In this document: positions 1 through 13,400 of the stretch, one piece after another | How positions within the stretch are numbered: position 1 is the stretch's first letter | How the letters are laid out: each line of letters begins with the position of its first letter | Source of the DNA: Maylandia zebra | Lineage: Eukaryota > Chordata > Actinopteri > Cichliformes > Cichlidae | Assembly (NCBI RefSeq): GCF_041146795.1 | Contig: NC_135180.1 | Span: 40,389,794-40,453,793, forward strand | Direction: 5' to 3' | Length of the DNA stretch: 64,000 nt | The notes under the pieces: generated by a model | Databases searched by the model: none | The model's input: the letters and a program-made list of their open reading frames with translations, nothing else | What the model was told of the DNA's origin: nothing | Position numbers and translations under genes: made by a program

Positions 1-249
1 TTTAAAGGCAATTTTTTTTATTTTTCATAAAACTGTGACAAAAACTTCCTGTTCACAGCCATACTGCAGCACTGTTTGAACCTGGTTGTCCTGCAGGTGG
101 CAGCACTGCATCTTCCTCTAGAAGAAGTACTTTTCAAAGGTAACTTGAGTGGGACTGCTAGTAGTACTGGAGTACTGCAGTAGTGACAGGTGTTATAAAT
201 GATCAGTGTTATTGATCAGTGATTGGTTGGTGAGTCGGGGTGGCGTTAC

Positions 250-363
250 CAGATTTGTCAAAGTCAGCAGATTCTGGATCAGATTCAACCAGAACATTTG
301 GAGCCATCCGAGGAGCTTTAACAGGAGGAGGAGCAGGAGTGGACTCATCAGGGAGAACTGGGC
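250..363 (-). CDS. SPINT-like linker exon (candidate)
   Basis: This 114-bp segment is preceded by a good acceptor (tgtttttccag) and followed by the weak donor GTAACG. It is phase 1 on both sides, as needed to follow the Kunitz exon. It encodes a Pro/Glu/Asp-rich stretch without cysteines, like the spacer between the two Kunitz domains in HAI-2. If the donor is not used, the frame reads 13 more codons to a stop, which would make this the C-terminus of a one-Kunitz protein. Confidence 0.5.
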
Positions 364-1137
364 CTGGAAAAACACACACAGTTTACTTTGACCAGGTGTG
401 CTCCACAGGTGTAACCAGGTGCAGCACCTAAATGAAGAATGCCCGTCCTTCCAGTTGAACACTCAACCAATCGGGGGCATGAATGCTGTCATGTGGGTTT
501 ACAGTGCTGCTTTTGTAAACTCATCAGCTGAGTACAGGTAAGCCAAAGCTGTCCTTTTAAAGGAAAGCTGATGGTGAGAGGACACACTCCACTGATCGTC
601 CAGCAGGTTGTATACAGGCGCTGTGGAGAGCATCCTCACACAGAACATGACATCGTGGTTTGGGAACAGCTGTGTGAAGGACCAAAAAGCTCTCCAGAGA
701 GTGATCCGTACAGCAGAACGCTGCTGCAGGATTGCTCTCCCCCCGCTTCAGGACACCTACACCAGGAGATGCCGGACTAGAGCAGCGCAGATACTGAAGG
801 ACCCGTCCCATCCTGGCAACAAACTGTTCCAACTTCTGCAATCTGGTAGAAGGTTCCGCATCTTCCGGGCAAGGACAGAGAGACTCAAGAGGAGCTTCTA
901 TCCCCAAGCCATCCGTGCCCTAAACACACACACCCGCCCTCTCACATCATCTATAATTGACTGAGACAGGACTCTTCCAGACACTAAACCAAGGCACAAT
1001 GTACATTTCAATTCCTTTAATTTTAAATATGTTTATATTGTCTATCCTGTAAAATAGTCAGATGTCTATTCATATTAATGTACAGAATTCACCTGCTTGC
1101 TGCTACTACTGCACATTCACCCAATGTATATACTATA

Positions 1138-1169
<32 letters not shown>

Positions 1170-4100
1170 ATGTTTTTCCTCTACACCCCCCCCCAATTTT
1201 TTTGCACATGTCGAGGAGCGTGTCAGGCTACATTTCACTGTGTGTTATACTTGTATAACTATGCATGTGACAAATAAAGAACCTTGAACCAGGTTGAAGT
1301 AAACCAGGTGTTCTCTGGTTTACCTGGAACAAAAACGTTAAACTGATCCAGTTCTGGTTCACTCAGGTACAAACACCAGACCACCTTAAACAAACCAGCT
1401 GTTAGTCCCGCCCCTTTTACATTCTTTAGATCAGATTTTAATGTTTTTACTGCGTGAGTAAACACACCTTTGATACTGTGTGTGTGTCCTCTGTGATCAT
1501 GGTGCCTTTAAGCAGTGTCGTAATAATCTGAAAATCGAGTGTCTGACAGGAAAAGTCACCTGATCTGATTGTCCAATCAAATCATCTCAGATGGGAGAAG
1601 ATGCGAGCCGCTCAGCTGCTGTTGTTTGATTCAGAAACACGGAGGACAAAAATGATTTTAATGAAGGAAATTTAAGAAAGGACAAAGATTTGTGCTGTGA
1701 ACTTTGACCCCACAGCTGTCACAGCCAGAGCCCCCCCACAGTCGGTTTAATAATGACCCTCACAGTCTGTGTGCTCGATCAGTCAAACGTTGGTTACTGA
1801 TTATCAAACACGTCATTAGTCTGTGACTTTAAAGGAGTGGTTTCATATCCGATCTGTAACGTGTGCCGTGGATCTGTGTTTTAATGACGCTCGCGTGTGT
1901 CGTTTTTTTTTTTTTCAACCTGCAGGTGAAATCCGCCTGCGCGCCTCATCCCCACACAGTCAACGATGAATTTATATTCCCCGTGTACTTAAATAGGCAC
2001 TGTTCCTTTAAACAAACATAAACAGGAAGTTTACCTGTGACCCCGGAACAGGTGGCCTCACACTCCTCCTGAGACTCAAAGTGGTTTCTGTTGGCCTCGC
2101 AGCCGCCGTACACGAAGCCGCTGCAGTTCCCGCTCGTCACGTTGTAGAAGAAGCGTGGGAAGGCAGCGCGACACGGGCCCACCTTCATCGGCAAGCGACA
2201 GCGAACTGAGAGAGACAACAGAGACACCGTCAATAACAGCACTGATAATCTTTCGGCGCTCTCTGATTGGCTGAGTTCAAACCCTGTCAGTTTCCTGTAA
2301 TTTTCAAAGTGCTCTTGAGCAACAGCTCTCCAGCTTCCTGAAGGAGTGCGTTTGTTTGTTGACCTCTGACCTCAGGCTTCTGATGCAAAGATGAGCCAGT
2401 TTTGTCTCTGCTCATAACAGACACCTGAGCAAAGAACCAGTTTTAAACTGTCTTTAGGCTCTTTGTCACGGTCATCATAGCGCACTAAAATAAAAATAAG
2501 AACTAGATGTTTGGAAAAAGAAAGAACACTAACAAAGTTAGTGGTCGTGGAAACTAAACGAATGAGACGTTTTTAACACTTATTAGTTTGGTAAATATAC
2601 CTTCCCTGACGAGGCTCAGACTCTGGAGTCACATGTTTTTTCAAACGCCCTCCTCACAGTAAGAACTTAAAAAGTGTAAAACTAACACTCAAAGTATCAT
2701 CTACTAATGACGATCATCTAGTGTCCACTGAAGCCTCATCAGACAGGTCTCAGTGAAGGACGGCTGTCAGGAAGTCATTCCACATGAGGGGACACAGGAG
2801 AAAAGACTGAGGTCTGAAAATGACACGAGAACTGGACTGAAGAGGACCAGGTGTGACGGAGCGATGGATCCACATCAGTATGTATGAGGAGATCCCACAC
2901 TGAGAGTCTGCAGCCATCTGTGAGCCACGGTGGAGGCGCTGCCATGGCTTCAGCTGACCTTCCAACCAAAATACAAAGAAAGGAGTGTTGACGTATCAGG
3001 TAACACCAATGAGTTAATCCAGAAAACCAGGTGCATTATGGGTGTGCCAGCAAAATAAACTGGACAGTAGATGGACTCAAAAACCCAAACCTCATGAAAA
3101 TCTCAGGTGTTTAAATCACCTTCAAACAAACAGGTGAGGGCTCCGCCTCCTCTCAGGTGAAGCAGCCCGACCGGTCCAACCTCTCGGAGAACAAACAGCC
3201 TGTAAAAATACCTGCACAGGTGGATTCCAGGTAGGGCATGGTGTCACATTTACAAGGAAACAAATGAGAGCAGATCATTAACTCTCAGAGGTGCTCGACC
3301 CGAGAGAGGCTGCCGGGGGCTCCCATGATGCACTGCGGGTTTCTTCTTCACTCACCTTGTGCTCATAAAGCTCTCTGTTTCAGGTAATCACTGAGCAGCT
3401 GAAAGCCTCATCCGTCACGTTAGACTAAAAAGGTCAAAGGTCAGTTTCTCTGTGACATCAATTTCACTTGTTTTTATCATTATTATAATAATGACCACAG
3501 CGTCCACGCTCTCAGGTTCAGTCCATGTTTGGCGCTTCCTGTTGACATTAGTGTGAATATGTCTCTGATCAACCAGAGCGTGAAGCGTCACAAAGAGGCC
3601 ACAGGTCACGGGTTTGTGTCTGCAGTTCACCTGTGCAGGTAACAATGCAGCAGAGCAGGATGGGCAGCATTGCTCAACAACAATGAGGCACCAAATGCGC
3701 CGCCCACAGCGACTCCCTTTTCACAGATTCACACGCCAACTCTGTTATTGATCAGGAAGTATGAGCTCAGTATTCTCAAAGGTTTCAGTGAATGAGGTCA
3801 TTACTGAGTCAGCTCTGACTCCGCCTTCTTTTGTTTCTTTTATTTTGAAAGTCTTCAGCACGAAGCAGGAAATCAATAATAATAATAATAATAATAATAA
3901 CGACCAATAATCAAGTTAAACTGATCAGGTTTCTCCCTGCAGACTGATCAATGAGCCATCTATCGATTAGGTAAAGGATCAGTTATGTTCAGCCTGATCT
4001 GTCAGCTCCATTACGGCTCTGCCTGTCGATCAATAATCAAAGCTTCTTACTGTTGTTAGACTCCCAGCGCTGCACCTGCGGCATGTTGTTCTCCTCCTGG

Positions 4101-4480
4101 CCGCCCTCCTGCGCATCTCCGTCGGCCTTTTCCGCCACGAGCTTACGGTAAACCTCAAACTGGCTACTGGGACGAAGTGCGCAGGCGTCGTGGCCGTCCC
4201 CACAGCCCACCAGCTTGCAGTGGGTCGGTCCGTCCGTCGGAAACCCGATCACAGCCAGGTCGCAGTCCGGGAGCGCGCAGCACATCGCCCGACAACTCTT
4301 GGGATCGAGCTCCATCACATTGCTCAGCAGCCGCGCTCCGCCAGCCTCGAAATCCGGGACCTGTTTGGGGTCGGTGGTCTGGTTCCAACTGCAGTCCATA
4401 GCCAGACCCGAAGCCAGCACGAGCCCGAGCGCGAGCAGCTTCAGCGGGATCAGCGGGATGGTCGCGCCCCCAGTCATCAT
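250..4480 (-). CDS. Kunitz-type serine protease inhibitor, HAI/SPINT-like (partial at 3' end)
   Basis: Three exons join in phase: 4480-4051, 2205-2035 and 363-250, each boundary in phase 1. Exon 1 starts at one of two adjacent ATGs (4480 or 4477). It gives a leucine-rich signal peptide of about 26 residues and then a MANSC domain whose cysteine order (C..SC-x3-CC-x5-C..HC-x3-GC..AC) is that of human HAI-1. Exon 2 is one Kunitz domain with six cysteines, the GPCRA reactive loop (P1 Arg, so a trypsin-like target) and an NVT glycosylation site. The third exon is a Pro/Asp-rich linker and is less certain. Family knowledge: HAI proteins are membrane-anchored inhibitors of HGFA, matriptase and hepsin. 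A second Kunitz domain and the transmembrane helix would lie left of position 1. No PKD domain appears between MANSC and Kunitz, unlike human HAI-1, so SPINT1 versus SPINT2 is open. Confidence 0.85.
364..607. other. no gene seen
   Basis: This is intronic DNA of the SPINT-like gene upstream (in gene sense) of the linker exon. It holds no recognisable element apart from the acceptor next to 363. Confidence 0.5.
608..1288 (+). mobile_element. LINE 3' end (CR1/L2/Rex1-like), 5'-truncated
   Basis: Positions 608-964 encode the last ~118 residues of a LINE reverse-transcriptase protein, with the usual fish ending (GRRFRIFRAR, then an SFYPQAIRALN-like tail) and a stop at about 962. The 3' UTR follows, with a (GT)n(AT)n tract at 1139-1169 and a run of nine C at 1186-1194. 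It ends in ACAAATAAAGAACC. The same 3' UTR recurs in opposite orientation at 30702-30840 and 36628-37003. It lies inside the SPINT-like gene's intron, antisense to it. Confidence 0.8.
1289..2034. other. intron DNA, no element recognised
   Basis: This is intron between the Kunitz exon and the linker exon. A short T-run lies near 1903-1914. No coding signal was found on either strand. Confidence 0.5.
3142..3285 (+). repeat. source copy of an exact 144-bp duplication
   Basis: This segment of SPINT-like intron 1 is identical, 144 of 144 bases by direct reading, to 6606-6749 in the same orientation. The bases on either side differ. I see no third copy, so it does not look like an interspersed repeat. 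The second copy sits at the 5' end of an L1 insertion. Confidence 0.9.
3877..3902 (+). repeat. (AAT)n microsatellite
   Basis: About eight uninterrupted AAT units lie in SPINT-like intron 1. Confidence 0.9.
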
Positions 4481-4489
4481 CAACAATCA

Positions 4490-5139
4490 ATACAAAGCTC
4501 CAATAATCAGGAAACAGCGCAGCGAGCCTCCGGCCACACGGTCACTTCCGTGTTCTTGGCTCTGTCGCACTTACATTTACCTACGACAGGTGCGGCAAGC
4601 GAGGCCTCGCCCACACCCAGACGTCACTCACACTCAGACACACACACTCACACATACAGAGTTCTGCTGAACGGTGAAAACCTCAAAGGTTCAAATAAAA
4701 CTCGTTTTGTTTTACTGATGACGATGAATCTTCGGCACAGAGCGGGAGAACAGAGTTTGAATTACAGTCAATCATTTGGTGTCTGAGCGCGCTCAGTGCT
4801 GCTGTTGGTCTCTAAGGTGACGGCTGCACATTACAGCTGTTTCCATGGAAACATGAACACCTCCTGTCCCACATCCTGATGAAGGAGACCTGATATCAGA
4901 TCAGAGGGCATTAATGTGATTGGCTGAACAGGTGTGTTCACTGTTTGCAGCAGAGTGACACTCAGCAGGAAAGCAGAATCAGCACATGTTCACATGACCA
5001 CACGCACTCTGAGCTGCTGGGCTGCACATAAAAGAATTAGAGGAAATGGCTGATTTCAAACTCTGAGCTCGACACATGACTCGGCTCCTCTGCTTCCTTC
5101 TGAGGGCCTCTGGATGTCTGGAGTCTTGATCTCGTCCAT
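4490..5139. other. upstream region of the SPINT-like gene
   Basis: This is the 5' flank and likely promoter side of the minus-strand SPINT-like gene. It contains a short (CA)-rich patch near 4636-4655 and CpGs near 4500-4600. No TATA box or second gene is evident. Confidence 0.4.
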
Positions 5140-5441
5140 ACCTGCTTCATGCCCTGGAGGACGGGGCTGTGGCCCCCCCACACCCTCTAGCAGATCATTA
5201 CATGAAGGAACCTTTTAAATAAACAAGCGCGTCCATGCTCACAGGTGTACACACGGGTGATCACACCCACAAACTACACCCTTTTTGGCTCCTACCTCAA
5301 AGCACACTGTGTTCTGTTGATCTTATGTGCTGCACAATAATGTTTAATATTTAGTATTTACTGTCATATTCCCATATATCATCGCGATGATGTTGATTGT
5401 GTTGCTCTTTTTTTTTTCTTCAGCTTGTTTTCTCTTTTTTC

Positions 5442-6605
5442 TTTTTTTTGTTATTCTCTTTTTATTAAACAACCTATATAAACACAAATAATCCAAAATA
5501 AACATATAATCAAGAACAGACGTAAATAATAAAAAAAATAAATAAATAAAAATAAGAAAAACAGACGGGTGTACCCTCTAGTGTGTATGTACTCGCACAC
5601 ACATATTCACTCACACACCCATATTCTTAAGCATACATACACATACCTACTTACATATGTGTTCACTTGTAGTCTCATACATACTAACATATACATATAA
5701 ACACATAACGATTCAGAAATGTGGCATATATAGTTACAGAGATTCAAACAAGATCGGGTCTCCTTAACCGGATGTAGTGTTTCCATTTACCCCAAATTTC
5801 ACTAAATATATCAAACTGGAGTCTTTCAATGAAGGTAATTCTTTCCATTTTAAACATCCCATGTACAGTCTCATGCCAATCACCCAGTGATGGAATTTTC
5901 ACACTAAGCCATTTCTTGGTAATAATTTTACGGGCAGCCAAACTCAGGATACCATACAACTGCTTAGACATTTTATCTACATTTACTGAGTATAAATATC
6001 CAAACAAAAGTTCGTCCCAATTAAAGGGAAGCTGCATACCAAAAATAATCTGCAACTCAGAGTGGATCAATACCCAAAAAATGTTGATCCTTGGGCAAGA
6101 CCAGAACAGATGAAAATGTTTTACTCCTTGGGCCCCACAATTTCTCCAGCAATTAGAGTGATTAAAATAATGTTTACTTTGTGCAGGGGTAATAAAAAAC
6201 CTACAGATACTCTTCCAACCGTAACATCTCCATGTATTAGAACTAGAAATTCTCCACTGAAAAGCGCACTGCTCATACCAAATGTTATCTGATATTGCTA
6301 TATTTGTTTCATTTTCCCATTTTTTTTTTGATGTAGGTAGTATTCCACTTCTTAACCTCTTGTATACCCTTGTACAATCTTGAAATCACCTTAAGGCCTG
6401 TGTCAGCCTGATAAGCCTTGACAAATATACTCAGAACAGGTAAAGAAAAAAGATCTGTTCTCTTAGGTATAAAATTATATAGATGATGCCTAATTTGTAA
6501 GAACCTAAAAAAGTCCGTTTTACTTAACTGGTATTGATCTTTTATTGATTGGAAGTCCCTAAGAATTCCCTTATCGTAAAACATACAATATGCCGTTAAA
6601 CCTTG
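5442..6605 (-). mobile_element. 5'-truncated L1-like LINE
   Basis: The minus strand encodes broken pieces of the C-terminal part of an L1-type ORF2 (6584-6309 and 6070-5744). It ends in an A-rich tail at about 5442-5470. The insertion, including the extra 144 bp at its 5' end, is flanked by the direct repeat CTCTTTTTTC at 5432-5441 and 6746-6755. A related L1 copy with a 16-bp target-site duplication lies at 57143-57941. Confidence 0.8.
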
Positions 6606-6749
6606 TCCGCCTCCTCTCAGGTGAAGCAGCCCGACCGGTCCAACCTCTCGGAGAACAAACAGCCTGTAAAAATACCTGCACAGGTGGATTCCAGGTAGGG
6701 CATGGTGTCACATTTACAAGGAAACAAATGAGAGCAGATCATTAACTCT
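6606..6749 (+). repeat. second copy of the exact 144-bp duplication, fused to the L1 5' end
   Basis: It is identical to 3142-3285 and directly abuts the truncated L1 at 6605/6606. It lies inside the same target-site duplication, overlapping it by four bases (CTCT). In L1 sense it forms the 5' extension of the inserted sequence. Confidence 0.9.
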
Positions 6750-6770
6750 TTTTTCATTCTCAACAGGTGA

Positions 6771-7104
6771 TGGCCTGGCCTGCATTTGTATAGCGCTTTT
6801 CTAGTCCATAGGACTTTACACTTACACTTTACACTACATTCAGTCATTCACCCATTCACACACACATTCACACACTGGCGATAGCAAGCTACATTGTAGC
6901 CACAGCCACCCTGGGGCGCACTGACAGAGGCGAGGCTGCCGGACACTGGCGCCACCGGGCCCTCTGACCACCACCAGTAGGCAAACACGGGGTTAGTATC
7001 TTGCCCAAGGATATTTGGCATGCAGCCAGGATGCAGCCTGGGATCGAACCACCGACCTTCTGATTAGTGGCTGACCTGCTCTGCCACCTGAGCTACAGCC
7101 ACCC
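6771..7104 (-). mobile_element. tRNA-derived SINE
   Basis: Read on the minus strand it starts with a tRNA-like head (A-box GTAGCTCAGGTGG, B-box GGTTCGATCCC). A conserved body and the tail AAAAGCGCTATACAAATGC follow. It is flanked by CAGGTGA at 6764-6770 and 7105-7111. Relatives lie at 7393, 12031, 27518, 35379 and 45429. Confidence 0.85.
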
Positions 7105-7392
7105 CAGGTGAGTGATAGATGGATTTTTTTGTCTGCTTATTTTGTTGGTTTTTGTTTTTTGCCCTTTATCCCCGTCCCTCTTCCCCGCTGTTTTTCTTTC
7201 CCTCTTTCTTTCTCCCCTTTCTTTTACCCAGGCTCTTTCGTCTTCAACCGTCAGTGACCTGCAGAGCAGCACCATGGCGAAGGTTTATCAGAGAGAAGTC
7301 TTCTGTGATATTATAATATGCCCCCTTCATCTCTCGAGCTCCCGTTTCATCTTAAAAGGCTGGAAGATGTTACAGAACTTCTAGACAGAAAA

Positions 7393-7702
7393 CAATAATG
7401 GATTGGATTTATATAGCGCTTTTCAAGGCACCCAAAGCACTTTACAATGGCACTATTCATTCACTCTCACATTCATACACTGGTGGAGGCAGCTACAGTT
7501 GTAGCCACAGCTGCCCTGGGGCAGACTGACAGAGGCCAGGCTGCCATATCGCACCATCGGCCCCTCTGGCCAACACCAGTAGGCGGTAGGGTAAAGTGTC
7601 TTGCCCAAGGACACAACGACCAGGACAGAGACCCCAGGGATTGAACCGGCGACCTTCTGGTTACAGATGCGCTTCCCAACCCCCTGAGCCACGGTCGCTC
7701 AA
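7393..7702 (-). mobile_element. tRNA-derived SINE (second subfamily)
   Basis: On the minus strand it begins GAGCGACCGTGGCTCAGGG (A-box), has B-box GGTTCAATCCC and ends AAAAGCGCTATATAAATCC. It is the same subfamily as the truncated copy at 35379-35547 and diverged from the SINE at 6771. Confidence 0.85.
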
Positions 7703-8520
7703 GTCCTTTAGAGGCTGTCCACGTGCTCAGATCTGACCGACAGTGAATCATTCATGGCGTGCAGGAAACATGATGAGAGCCTGATTAAGGACAGGGAGAA
7801 ATGGGCTCCGATGTTAAATCAGCACAGACTGAGGGCTGATTAGACCAAAACCTTTACATGAAAAAGCTGAGAAACTTAAGAATCTTCTCTGGCTGGTGAA
7901 TTGGGGTCTTTTTATGTGGTTAAAGTCACATCATGCACATGAATCCATGCTGGCTGCATGTATATATATCAACTAAAAATTGCACAGACTTGTAAAGATC
8001 ATTTCTCATCGGTGCCTATTTTCATTTTTGCAGTGTTGTGTTTAACATGTCATCAAAGCTGTGCCACCTACATGCAAATGTATAATCAAAGGTAAACGTG
8101 TACACACAGACAGCTACACGCACAGTTTTACAGATATTTTTCTACTTCAAGCTCATGAATTCATAAGACAGTGTGTATGCCAGGCAGAGCAGACTAACAT
8201 GACAGCCTCCTGACAGCTCCCGTACACAGGCAGCCTGCTTTGGGTTTTAGATATACAGTATATTTTGAAAGTTATTCAAGAGCAAGGGTGCGGAGGGAGC
8301 AGAAACACCACATGAATAAATAGAAATCAAACACTCACCGGCTGAGGTTTTGGCACTTTGAGCAGAGATATGGGGGAAGGTGTCAAGGGGTACGACAACA
8401 GGGTTTGACAAGGGGGCCATGACGGGCAGCAGACAAAATAAGAAAATAAATAAATAATAAAAAATACTTGTGTGATGATTGATCAATCAGCCCTCTGAGC
8501 CCTCCTGAGCTTCAGCTCAT
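7703..8520. other. no gene seen
   Basis: Unassigned intergenic DNA without a convincing ORF or repeat structure. Confidence 0.4.
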
Positions 8521-9140
8521 GTTGTCATGTCATGGTCTGTGGAGTGGACAGTAGTGGACCCAAAGACAGACACACGAAACGTGGAAACAGTGCTGATCTG
8601 AACAGAAAACGTGTCTTTTATTATGGCCGAAAACATGAACCACACACGAAAAAGAGAAACTAATCGCAAAAACCTAAACTGGGAAAATAAATACATGAAA
8701 ACCAGGAACACTAGGAAATAGATATGAGACACGAGGAGCTTAGCAGATGATCAGACGACCAGCAGAGGGAGACAGAGGGCGTAAATACACAGAAAGGTAC
8801 CGATGGAACCAGCTGCCAGATGAACATGACTCCACAGGGGAAGCAAAATTAAACACACCGAACATGGAACACGGGACTGTCAAAATAAAACAGGAAATAG
8901 GCAGAGTAAGACACTCGGACTAAACAAGTGAACAGGGAAGTGACAATGGGAGACGAGACACGGATCAAACTACGGAACACGTACAGAGGACACAACGGGC
9001 TGGGAGACATGACGCTGAACACAAGGAGAACATGGGAACAAAGCGGGGAAACAAGACACGTGGACACACACACACAAGGCGTTACACTGAGACGGCAAGC
9101 GTAACTGGACTGACTGGACCTCAAACACACCACCTACAGT
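8521..9140 (-). mobile_element. LTR-like repeat (probable solo LTR)
   Basis: In minus orientation it has an AATAAAAG polyadenylation signal (about 8610-8620) and ends CCATGACATGACA, resembling the LTR-like units at 54029, 56039 and 61490. The 5' boundary is not clear and no target-site duplication was found, so the call rests on layout. Confidence 0.4.
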
Positions 9141-10493
9141 CAGATCAGGAAGACAACCCCATTTTAACTCCACCCTCACAACCCATTAACCAGCCCACCT
9201 GCCTCAGCAGAGCCTGCCGTCACAGGGAGTGTGGGCCTCACTCGTGTCTGCATTTCACACTGCAGACGTGGCTCTGAAACAGCCGCTGCATTTAGCTGCT
9301 GAACCAGAGTCTGACTCCACTTTCATCCTCACGGCTCTACTTCCTGTTTGTCACATGATTAAAAAAGAAACCTGAGCCATGATCCATCGCACGTGTGTGT
9401 ATGGTACTTGTCTACGTGCGTAGTCAGGGTGTGACCTCTGGCTCACTCACACATTAATGCAGTGGAGTTCACTTGGAGCTGTGCGTCTGAGCCCTGCTTC
9501 ATCTGAGGTCACCTTGACATTCAGGGCCAAGGTCGTCCTTAAAAGAGGAGCGAGAGTCTGAATAGTGTAATAGTGTTTGTTGGTGCATTCAAGTTTAAAA
9601 AGCTGAGCACCAACCACAATTTTATGTCAGCAACACAGTCCTGCAAAACCCCCAGACAGGTTGGAGTTGGAGTCATAATGCACCCAAATACAGGAGGAAA
9701 ACTCAGCTTTATGTGCTGCAAGCTTGCAGATAAAACAGACTGAGACAGAACAGGATGGCTCAGGGTTCAAAGACGCCACACTGGACCATCATCCACATGG
9801 ACCATAACCTCGAAACATTACACTGCAAACTCCACAAACACATGAATAAATACAGAGCGTTGTTGTTTGCGCTGTGTTGTTCTTATCTGAATGATCAGTG
9901 TAATCAGAACTGTGACATCTGCAGATATTATCTCTGCAACTAAAACCACAACATCTTTAACACTTTTAGTTTTATTTGTTTTTATGGATTATCACAAAAA
10001 CACAAACAGCATAAGCGTATGCTTCAGCCAATAACTGTTGATTAGCCTTGTCTCGTGCTTTCTTTGTGGTAGATCTTTATTCTGTATACACTGAGATATC
10101 TGAATGCTAATCAAAATAAATTAATTAAAAAAATAAAAAGTTTAATAAAATGATCAGTAAACAACATAATCAATAAAAATCTGAGTTTAACTTTGAAAAC
10201 AAAAATCAATGATTTAGTTGTTTTTTTTTAACCAAACATTTGAATTTGTTGAAGCTCTTATTAAGCACGAGGATATTATTTTATTATTGATTATTTAGCT
10301 TAACTGGATGTTTGAATAGTTTTATTCAGGAAAATAAATAAATAATTATTAAAAGGTACATGTACTGCAATCCTGCGTAAGGTCGAGGTATTTCAGGTTA
10401 TTGATCTTCATGCTATTGATTATCTAAAGTGCATCAGTGAAAGACTTTTAATTTTAATTCTGTGTATCACAGTTGGAGCTCCCAGGATCGAAC
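9141..10493. other. no gene seen; AT-rich downstream of the TM4SF gene
   Basis: This region lies 3' of the TM4SF stop. The AT-rich stretch 10080-10340 contains several possible polyadenylation hexamers, so the mRNA end cannot be placed. No repeats were recognised. Confidence 0.4.
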
Positions 10494-13400
10494 TCACGTC
10501 AAACTGAAACTGGACTGATCTGAAACATAGAAACACACACACACACGTGCGATATGAATAAACTGCTAAATCTGGAGCAGACGTTATAAATAGATGGTCC
10601 AAAGGTGTGTTCTCCCACAGACCTTACTGTGGGAGAGGCCCCGGCCCAGAATCAGGCCAAGTATGGAGTTCAGGATGTTGGCCCCACAGAGGACCGTCTG
10701 CAGTCCGCTCACAGTCCCCATCACACTGAACAGGACCAAGTTCCACTGGACCACCGAGCTGGGCTCCAAGCAGACCCCAGACCACAGAGTCCTGTTGAAC
10801 AGGTATCCCGAGTGTCTAAGGAGACAGGAAAATATCTGCCCAAGAGTACAAGGAAACATCTGTCCGAGGCTACAAAGAAAACATCTTTGACATTACTCCG
10901 AGTGTCTGAGGACAGAGAGACAGGAAACCACTAAAACCAGTTCAGAACATCTGTGTGAGTGTGTCTCACCGGCCTGGGAGGGGCTGCAGCGGGACCCCCC
11001 AGGTGGGACCAGAGGAGTCGTTGTAGAGGCAGAGGGGACCCTGAGACAGACCAGTGGCACTGACCAGGGAGCAGGAGGCAGCAGAGAGCAGACAGAGGCA
11101 GGAGTAAAGCAGCTGGCACAACATCTGGAGAAGAGAGACGTGATATGACTGACAACATCTGGAGCAGCTCACACGTGTCAGAAAAATACAGATGTGGTTT
11201 CCAGATTTCACTTTGATAAAAAACATCTGTGATGAAAATCGGTGCGAGAGGGGGTGGAGCCTGAGGTCACCTGACTCCTGAACGCACAGCAGCCTCGGGT
11301 TCTGCTGCTCTGGACAAAGGCTCGAGCTCCAAGTAGAACCTGAAATCAGAGTTTAAAAATTCTAGTTAAACTGTTACACCTTGATTTCATTTTCTACTTT
11401 AACTTTGTTGAGGTCCAATCACAAAGAGGAACATAAAAACACATCATCAGTAAGCAAATTATACTGATGCAAATGTAACTGACAAGTAAATGGTAAAATG
11501 GTAAATGACTGATTCTTATATAGCGCTTTTCTACTCTCCCGGAGTACTCAAAGTCAATACAATGAGTCAAAGGTCAAACATTAAAATCCCAAATGACAAA
11601 ATGTACTGTACCAGACGCAGCACAGTTATTATCGACAGTCACTGAGCAGATAAAACCACAACCAGGAACACACAAAAAATCCTCAGTAAGGAACTTGTAC
11701 TAACACAAATTCAGCCATTTAAAATAACATGAATATGAAGGATATGGCTGGATTGTCTCAGGGGCATCTTTACACAACCTGCACCTGGTGTGATAGACTC
11801 CAGCCTCTGTGGATCTCAGAGCTTGTTCTTCTGCTGCCATGATTAGTGCCTCTGTGCTGTCTTTCAGTCCAGCTTTGTCCAGCCACTGGTAGGATTTCTG
11901 GATATCAGTCACTTACTCTACCTGCTGGTGGTACATACCGTGCAGGGGCCCGTCCTTCCATGATGGTGCCTCCTCTTGCTCCTCTTCGTTCTCACGTTTC
12001 TGCTGCCTGAGGTAACTGACACCAGACCCAGCACGATCGTGGCTCAAGAGTTGGGAGTTTGCCTTGTAATCGGAAGGTTGCCGGTTCGAGCCCCGGCTCG
12101 GACAGTCTGTCGTTGTGTCCTTGGGCAAGACACTTCACCCGTTGCCTACTGGTGGTGGTCAGAGGGCCCGGTGGCGCCAGTGTCCGGCAGCCTCGCCTCT
12201 GTCAGTGCGCCCCAGGGTGGCTGTGGCTACAATGTAGCTGCCATCACCAGTGTGTGAATGGGTGGATGACTGGATATGTAAAGCACTTTGGGGTCCTTAG
12301 GGACTAGTAAAGCGCTATATAAATACACGCCATTTACCATTTGAGGTGCTGACATTCAGCGGTCCCCAACCTCCTTCCTTCCACTTAGCGTACAGCCTCA
12401 GGGTGCTGGACTTGGGGTGAAACCCTCCGTGCATGGTCAGGAGCTTTCTTGCCTTGATGTCAGTGGCTTCTATCTCCTCCTTTGGCCAGCTTATTATCCC
12501 AGCAGGGTACCTGATCACAGGTAGGGCGTAGGTGTTGATAGTCCTCAGGACTTGCCTGACGCTCTGCAGGTACTTGGTGGTTGCAGCTTTCCTAGCGGCC
12601 TCTTCATGGTTCCCATTTGCCTGTGGGATCCCCAGGTACTTGTAGCTGTCCTCGATGTCTGCAATGTTGCCTTCTGGTAGTTCGATCCCCTAAGTTTGAC
12701 TACCTTCGTCTAAAACTGCTCCGTGTCCACACTATCATTTTCAAAGAGTTGTTCGTCCACATTGAAACAGCCAAAAACGCTTACGTTCCAGTACTGTACA
12801 TGCACGTAAAGTAACACAATTCAACCTCCCTCATTTCTTTCTGCTGTTTTTTTACTTTGCGGCTCTTTGAAACATCGCGGCAAAATGTGAAGGAAAAGCA
12901 CCAAATCTTTTAAATGGACTGACAATGAGGTGGAGTTGTTGCAGCGAGTAATATGAGAGTGCAAAGTTGCAAAAACGAGTGAGAATTAAAGAATTGGAAG
13001 AAAAGCTATCTGGAGCATGTACAGACTGATATTAACCTTTAATAGGTCTGTCAAAACTGACAGCAAACAAAATGCTGTCCACCACCTTAGTTGAATTGGT
13101 CACATGACTGCATCACATGACTAAAATGCATCATGGTTTTACAAAGCCTCCATTTTCACAGTCCACACCACAACGCAAAAGCTGCGTTTTTCAAACGTAT
13201 CTGCTTTGGAGAGCATTTTCAAAAAGCTCAGTTTTCCTTGACCGAAAACGCCGTCTCAGTGTGGACGGGAGGCCAAAACAGAGAGAAAAAGATCAAAACG
13301 TATTAGTGTAGACATGGCCTTTTTGTCTGTGTGCGTGCGTGTGAGGATGTGTGGCTTGCGTTCAGCCTGAGGAAATGTCCTTTCACCCAATTAAGCGAAG

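Follow-up and report, generated by a model that had tools for sequence, protein, structure and literature searches.

The closest described counterparts of the locus studied here are LINE insertions that carry extra sequence between their 5′ end and the target. For the 5′ extra nucleotides of zebrafish LINEs, the template is reported to be mostly the flanks in the genome or the LINE itself, and annealing has been put forward as the explanation (PMC4245944, PMC4760211). They occur in about half of the ZfL2-2 copies by the count of these papers and in ~40% by that of an earlier paper from the same group (PMC2666801), where, with reference to unpublished data, template jumping was given as the origin of many. 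Extra sequence at the 5′ ends of human L1 copies has been termed possible 'filler' (PMC2837659), and human ORF2p is described as copying both DNA and RNA and as jumping between templates, a jump to exposed genomic DNA being part of a proposed model (PMC10830420). A catalogue of L1 chimeras lists 253 with known types of small RNA and 17 with mRNAs or lncRNAs; 15 of these 17 are in sense orientation and six end at splice donors, and some small-RNA types are mostly antisense (PMC13174262). Templated insertions, in turn, fall into classes (PMC5110952).

The locus lies in a window of 64,000 nucleotides (the whole stretch of DNA that was analysed) from the cichlid Maylandia zebra, where the 5′ end of a truncated L1 is joined to a patch copied from an intron of the neighbouring gene. 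Like the insertions of ZfL2-2, ZfL2-1 and Nimb-2_DR, it has extra sequence between the 5′ end and the target, and in those cases too the extra sequence is templated largely by the flanks and explained by annealing; extra sequence, a nearby template and signs of annealing are all present here. Unlike them, as they are described, the window has a patch of ~137 nt taken from ~2.1 kb away instead of 'several' extra nucleotides with a flanking source (PMC4245944, PMC4760211, PMC2666801). With the chimeras between L1 and U6, U3, 5S, mRNA or lncRNA it shares foreign 5′ sequence and a joint duplication, as well as the sense orientation seen in most U6, U3 and mRNA chimeras; it differs from them in that its segment is a stretch of intron from that very locus rather than an abundant small RNA or the start of a transcript, and in that it shows no splice junction (PMC13174262). 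Among templated sequence insertion polymorphisms, it combines the duplication of class 1 with the microhomology of class 2, it includes the L1 itself, and its template is local where theirs is distant (PMC5110952). The event therefore belongs to a known kind, the untidy L1 insertion with 5′ extra sequence, of which it is an unusually clear case. We recognised no LINE 5′ patch of such length from a neighbouring intron in searches of open-licence papers, which is weak evidence of absence.

The template side of the event involves the following features.

1946..2371, minus strand: open frame with the Kunitz exon of the host gene (Pfam PF00014, E 8.9e-19); the exon starts at 2205.
3142..3285, minus strand: source segment, within intron 2206-4050 of a SPINT1/HAI-1-like gene; exact match to 6606-6749.
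4037..4486, minus strand: open frame with the MANEC exon of the host gene (Pfam PF07502, E 2.8e-7); the exon ends at 4051.
6606..6749, minus strand: patch, an exact copy of 3142-3285; 6606-6608 (TCC) is common to the L1 and 6746-6749 (CTCT) is common to the target.

The combination of MANEC and Kunitz domains recalls SPINT1 (HAI-1), and we call the host gene SPINT1-like; a comparison of the MANEC exon with solved structures found no relative. Intron 2206-4050 (minus strand, GT...AG, 1845 bp) separates the two exons and the reading frame is kept across the join. A sequence-only reading of this DNA had placed the source in the first intron of a SPINT-like gene, on its sense strand, and this is where it lies, 'first' meaning the intron that follows the exon with the apparent start codon. 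The source is ~0.77 kb from the 5′ end of the intron and ~0.94 kb from its 3′ end, the copied strand is the sense direction of the gene, and the insert is found ~950 bp upstream of the apparent start codon.

The same reading had claimed an exact copy of 144 bp, and direct comparison bears this out: window positions 6606-6749 and 3142-3285 are identical at 144/144 bases, and the identity ends sharply, the adjacent bases being C and G on the left and C and T on the right. With none of the 144 sites mutated, the 95% upper bound on divergence of the patch from its source is 0.021. Could the segment simply be an ordinary repeat, as many genomic copies would have indicated? A search of the own genome (962,127,851 bases in 63 contigs, simple repeats and very common words being skipped) gave two first-look candidates and two matches, each 100% over positions 1-144 and both inside the window, which speaks against that identity. 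The evidence that the segment lacks repeat status is strong but not absolute, and the uniqueness covers the 144 bp alone. A small RNA inside the intron was likewise rejected as the identity of the segment: at E <= 10, an Rfam scan of 2900-7300 returned four weak matches, each far below its gathering score, and no family in either source or patch. As a separate observation, a 12-base match (AGCAGATCATTA) at 3269 and 5189 was set aside as chance.

On the target side, four further features are needed.

5098..5444, plus strand: high-copy dispersed repeat, the target; it resumes at 6746-6771 and then at ~7104-7225, after another insert.
5432..5441, plus strand: left copy of the target-site duplication, CTCTTTTTTC; exact, with differing flanking bases.
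5442..6608, minus strand: 3′ part of a 5′-truncated, young L1, at least 95% identical to 25 other fetched copies, with a short A tail.
6746..6755, plus strand: right copy of the target-site duplication, CTCTTTTTTC, on the far side of the patch; its first four bases are common to the patch.

Searching the genome with the left flank (5098-5444) produced 865 first-look candidates, 40 of which were scored, all at 92% or better. We inspected 21 target-repeat copies from the top of the scored list, with the window excluded and independence of the copies not assumed. The repeat is uninterrupted at the site in 21/21, in 18 by a fixed pattern for the empty site (TTTTC, 0-3 bases, TCTCAACAGG) and in three by eye, namely L072, L075 and L082, which are off the pattern through small variants at the same place; the window's own CATTCTCAACAGG is common to four copies (L069, L073, L074 and L083). 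Because the repeat is uninterrupted in all of them, the L1 and the patch lie together inside one 10-bp target-site duplication, and the joint insert that had been proposed from the letters alone agrees with both the exact duplication copies and the empty sites. These sites are paralogous, not orthologous, and reveal the sequence before insertion. The possibility that the patch already existed at the target was rejected, a 30-base probe from the patch being present in 0/21 of the copies. The same target repeat holds a further insert at 6772-7103, with AGGTGA on both sides, the repeat stopping at ~6771 and resuming at ~7104; part of this insert resembles 7399-7427 (83%) and 11506-11534 (69%).

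The element at 5442-6608 is assigned tentatively to the L1 clade, following the sequence-only reading and the features of the family. A T-rich nick site is present, and the short 3′ tail, which follows ...CTCTTTTTTC in the target, reads T8 on the plus strand. A genome search with 5442-6605 (minus strand) gave at least 49 matching stretches from the 40 scored of 65 candidates, and a second one with the 3′ 401 bases of the L1, the origin of loci L033-L062, gave no new places at 90% or more among the 40 of 45 candidates scored. The 30 L1 loci fetched from the first search comprise the window (L003), 25 copies with at least 95% identity (L004-L028) and a further four (L029-L032) with 86-88%. Compared with the 25 copies, no substitution in the 1164 bases is private to the window L1; at position 779 of the element, G occurs in the window and L013 alone and A in the other 24 copies, and the closest fetched copy, L004, differs at one position. 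Since there is no private substitution and the closest copy is a single difference away, the insertion is recent, which fits the unmutated patch.

Some other properties of this element and its relatives deserve mention. Pfam gave no match for two translated pieces of the L1, and the frame of the fragment is split in two (6309-6707 and 5744-6385, minus strand), the parts overlapping at a run of ten T on the plus strand (6320-6329). Three relatives on contig C25 (L005, L006 and L010, at ~3.91, 3.72 and 3.97 Mb) are 99.6-99.8% identical over whole loci of 4.16 kb, flanks included, which suggests a segmental duplication rather than three insertions. Elsewhere in the window, an open frame at 596-964 (plus strand) resembles, by eye, the end of the reverse transcriptase frame of another non-LTR element.

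How was the patch joined at its two ends? The L1 part begins mid-element; those relatives that extend further 5′ run past the joint as CCTTG|TCCAGACC, with the variant TCCAGCCC in L022 and L025. At this joint, TCCGCCTCC stands in the window and GGGCTCCGCCTCC in the source, and TCC is common to the L1 relatives and the source. The unambiguous patch therefore begins at 6609 and covers 6609-6745 (137 nt, template 3145-3281), the full range being 137-144, and the shift from L1 to source would have fallen within or beside TCC. At the other end, the source reads ...AACTCT|CAGAG and the patch ...AACTCT|TTTTTC, and CTCT also starts the duplication CTCTTTTTTC. Both ends of the patch thus show microhomology, TCC on the L1 side and CTCT on the target side. 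The sequence-only reading had recognised CTCT, which is indeed both the last four bases of the patch and the start of the target duplication, and had overlooked TCC. In a null of 200,000 draws of source positions in the window, with a segment length of 140 and the target and L1 end fixed, three or more shared bases were seen at the first joint in 5.4% of draws, four or more at the second joint in 2.5%, and the two together in 0.16% (~0.0016), a figure that concerns one event judged after the fact and serves as a guide only.

Other truncated copies of the same L1 give a measure of how usual such a joint is. Of the 25 relatives that reach 95% identity, eight have their 5′ end within the 1.5-kb fetched flank, and six of these eight carry exact duplications of 9 to 16 bases. 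Among the six, L008, L017 and L018 have no extra base, L024 has one, L027 three and L023 five; the five of L023 would vanish if a longer duplication with one mismatch were accepted. In L015 and L022, the fetched flank showed no duplication at least 8 bases long close to the joint, and both are candidates for other unusual 5′ joints. In a check for local patches, the 300-bp upstream stretch of L022 had no second copy in the 10 kb fetched, save a 24-nt match; for L015, the sequence covered extended ~42 bp past the L1 end, with 301 bp of upstream flank. The 137 extra bases of the window are an outlier in this very small sample.

From the identity, the joint duplication, the paralogous empty sites, both microhomologies and the youth of the L1, we consider it rather probable that a single L1 retrotransposition event produced the whole insert, through a template switch to local DNA ~2.1 kb away followed by annealing to the target overhang. 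The L1 endonuclease would nick the plus strand in a T-rich tract of the dispersed repeat upstream of the SPINT1-like gene, either after C or after the T run, and reverse transcription would copy the L1 RNA from its 3′ end for ~1.16 kb. The 3′ end of the cDNA (...CCTTGTCC) would then leave the L1 RNA, pair via TCC with the minus strand at 3142-3144, and be extended for ~137-144 nt on this new template, ~2.1-2.3 kb from the insertion site. The AGAG that ends the 3′ overhang left by second-strand cleavage could then pair with the CTCT of the new cDNA end (...AACTCT), closing the gap and leaving the 10-bp target-site duplication. The polymerase acting on the chromosomal template may have been that of L1 itself or a host repair polymerase. 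The order of these steps, the polymerase and the use of DNA rather than RNA are what we infer. Against this switch to local DNA, the patch is far longer than the 0-5 nt of extra sequence in the 6/8 truncated copies with a duplication, and the template lies 2.1 kb off, not beside the break.

Was the template DNA or RNA? The sequence-only reading had offered either a jump to the nearby pre-mRNA or copying of local DNA; both are retained here, local DNA being favoured, and no choice is forced. In the first case, which we consider less likely, the L1 reverse transcriptase would have switched from the L1 RNA to a pre-mRNA of the SPINT1-like gene, nascent or fragmentary, and read ~140 nt of its intron before the cDNA end annealed to the target. 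The orientation fits: the cDNA is plus-strand and would call for a minus-sense RNA, which this minus-strand gene would supply; RNA accounts for the sense strand, where DNA copying leaves a coin toss, and this 1-in-2 coincidence counts against a DNA template. In the chimera catalogue, 5′ L1 chimeras with U6, U3 and mRNA are mostly sense, but antisense-biased ones with 5S, U5 and tRNA are also found, and sense orientation is no rule (PMC13174262). The segment itself has no Rfam family, and it begins and ends inside the intron, away from splice sites. Introns are short-lived, and picking an RNA of the same locus therefore needs a nascent transcript close by. The chance that a random genome position falls within 2.3 kb of the site is ~5e-6, and nearness of the template probably mattered; this locality, the main clue to the mechanism, disfavours a random pick among all cellular RNAs and leaves nascent RNA of the same gene unaffected. 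For DNA copying, a nearby chromosome is enough, whereas for RNA copying the gene would have to be under transcription at the time. Nearby chromosomal DNA is most likely the template in preference to nascent pre-mRNA, a matter that one event cannot decide.

A history of two events, with the L1 inserted first and a later break at its 5′ joint repaired with the intron copy, appears very unlikely. It would suit the position of the patch, which directly abuts the 5′ end of the L1, and neither part is present in the empty sites, which hence give no order between them; however, the second break must strike precisely at the boundary of L1 and duplication without loss to either, and TCC corresponds to the next bases that the L1 RNA would supply, which fits a switch during cDNA synthesis. 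An assembly artefact is more improbable still, as the contig measures 41 Mb and the target-site duplication, microhomologies and agreement with the empty sites are traces of insertion, unexpected from an assembler. Least credible of all is that an intron-L1 fusion RNA existed before insertion through 5′ transduction or splicing: although L1 is known to be fused with first exons of genes (PMC13174262) and GC, a rare donor, follows the source part in one register, GT donor and AG acceptor are absent from the L1/patch joint in 4/4 registers, the L1 part starts mid-element, and a comparison across window positions 1-12000 gave no other copy of the L1 stretch.

The joining of the LINE 5′ end to its target is the less understood half of integration. 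The youth of the window copy allows the source, the patch, both microhomologies and the target before insertion to be read base by base, which makes it a good reference case for the origin of such patches from local DNA or from nascent RNA. As a speculation that we regard as unlikely though worth stating, L1 integration complexes in fish may draw templates from the gene next to which they land, either as exposed DNA or as unspliced RNA still being made, with locus-specific patches longer than 100 nt as a regular by-product. If this were true, such patches would be a source of small dispersed duplications near genes.
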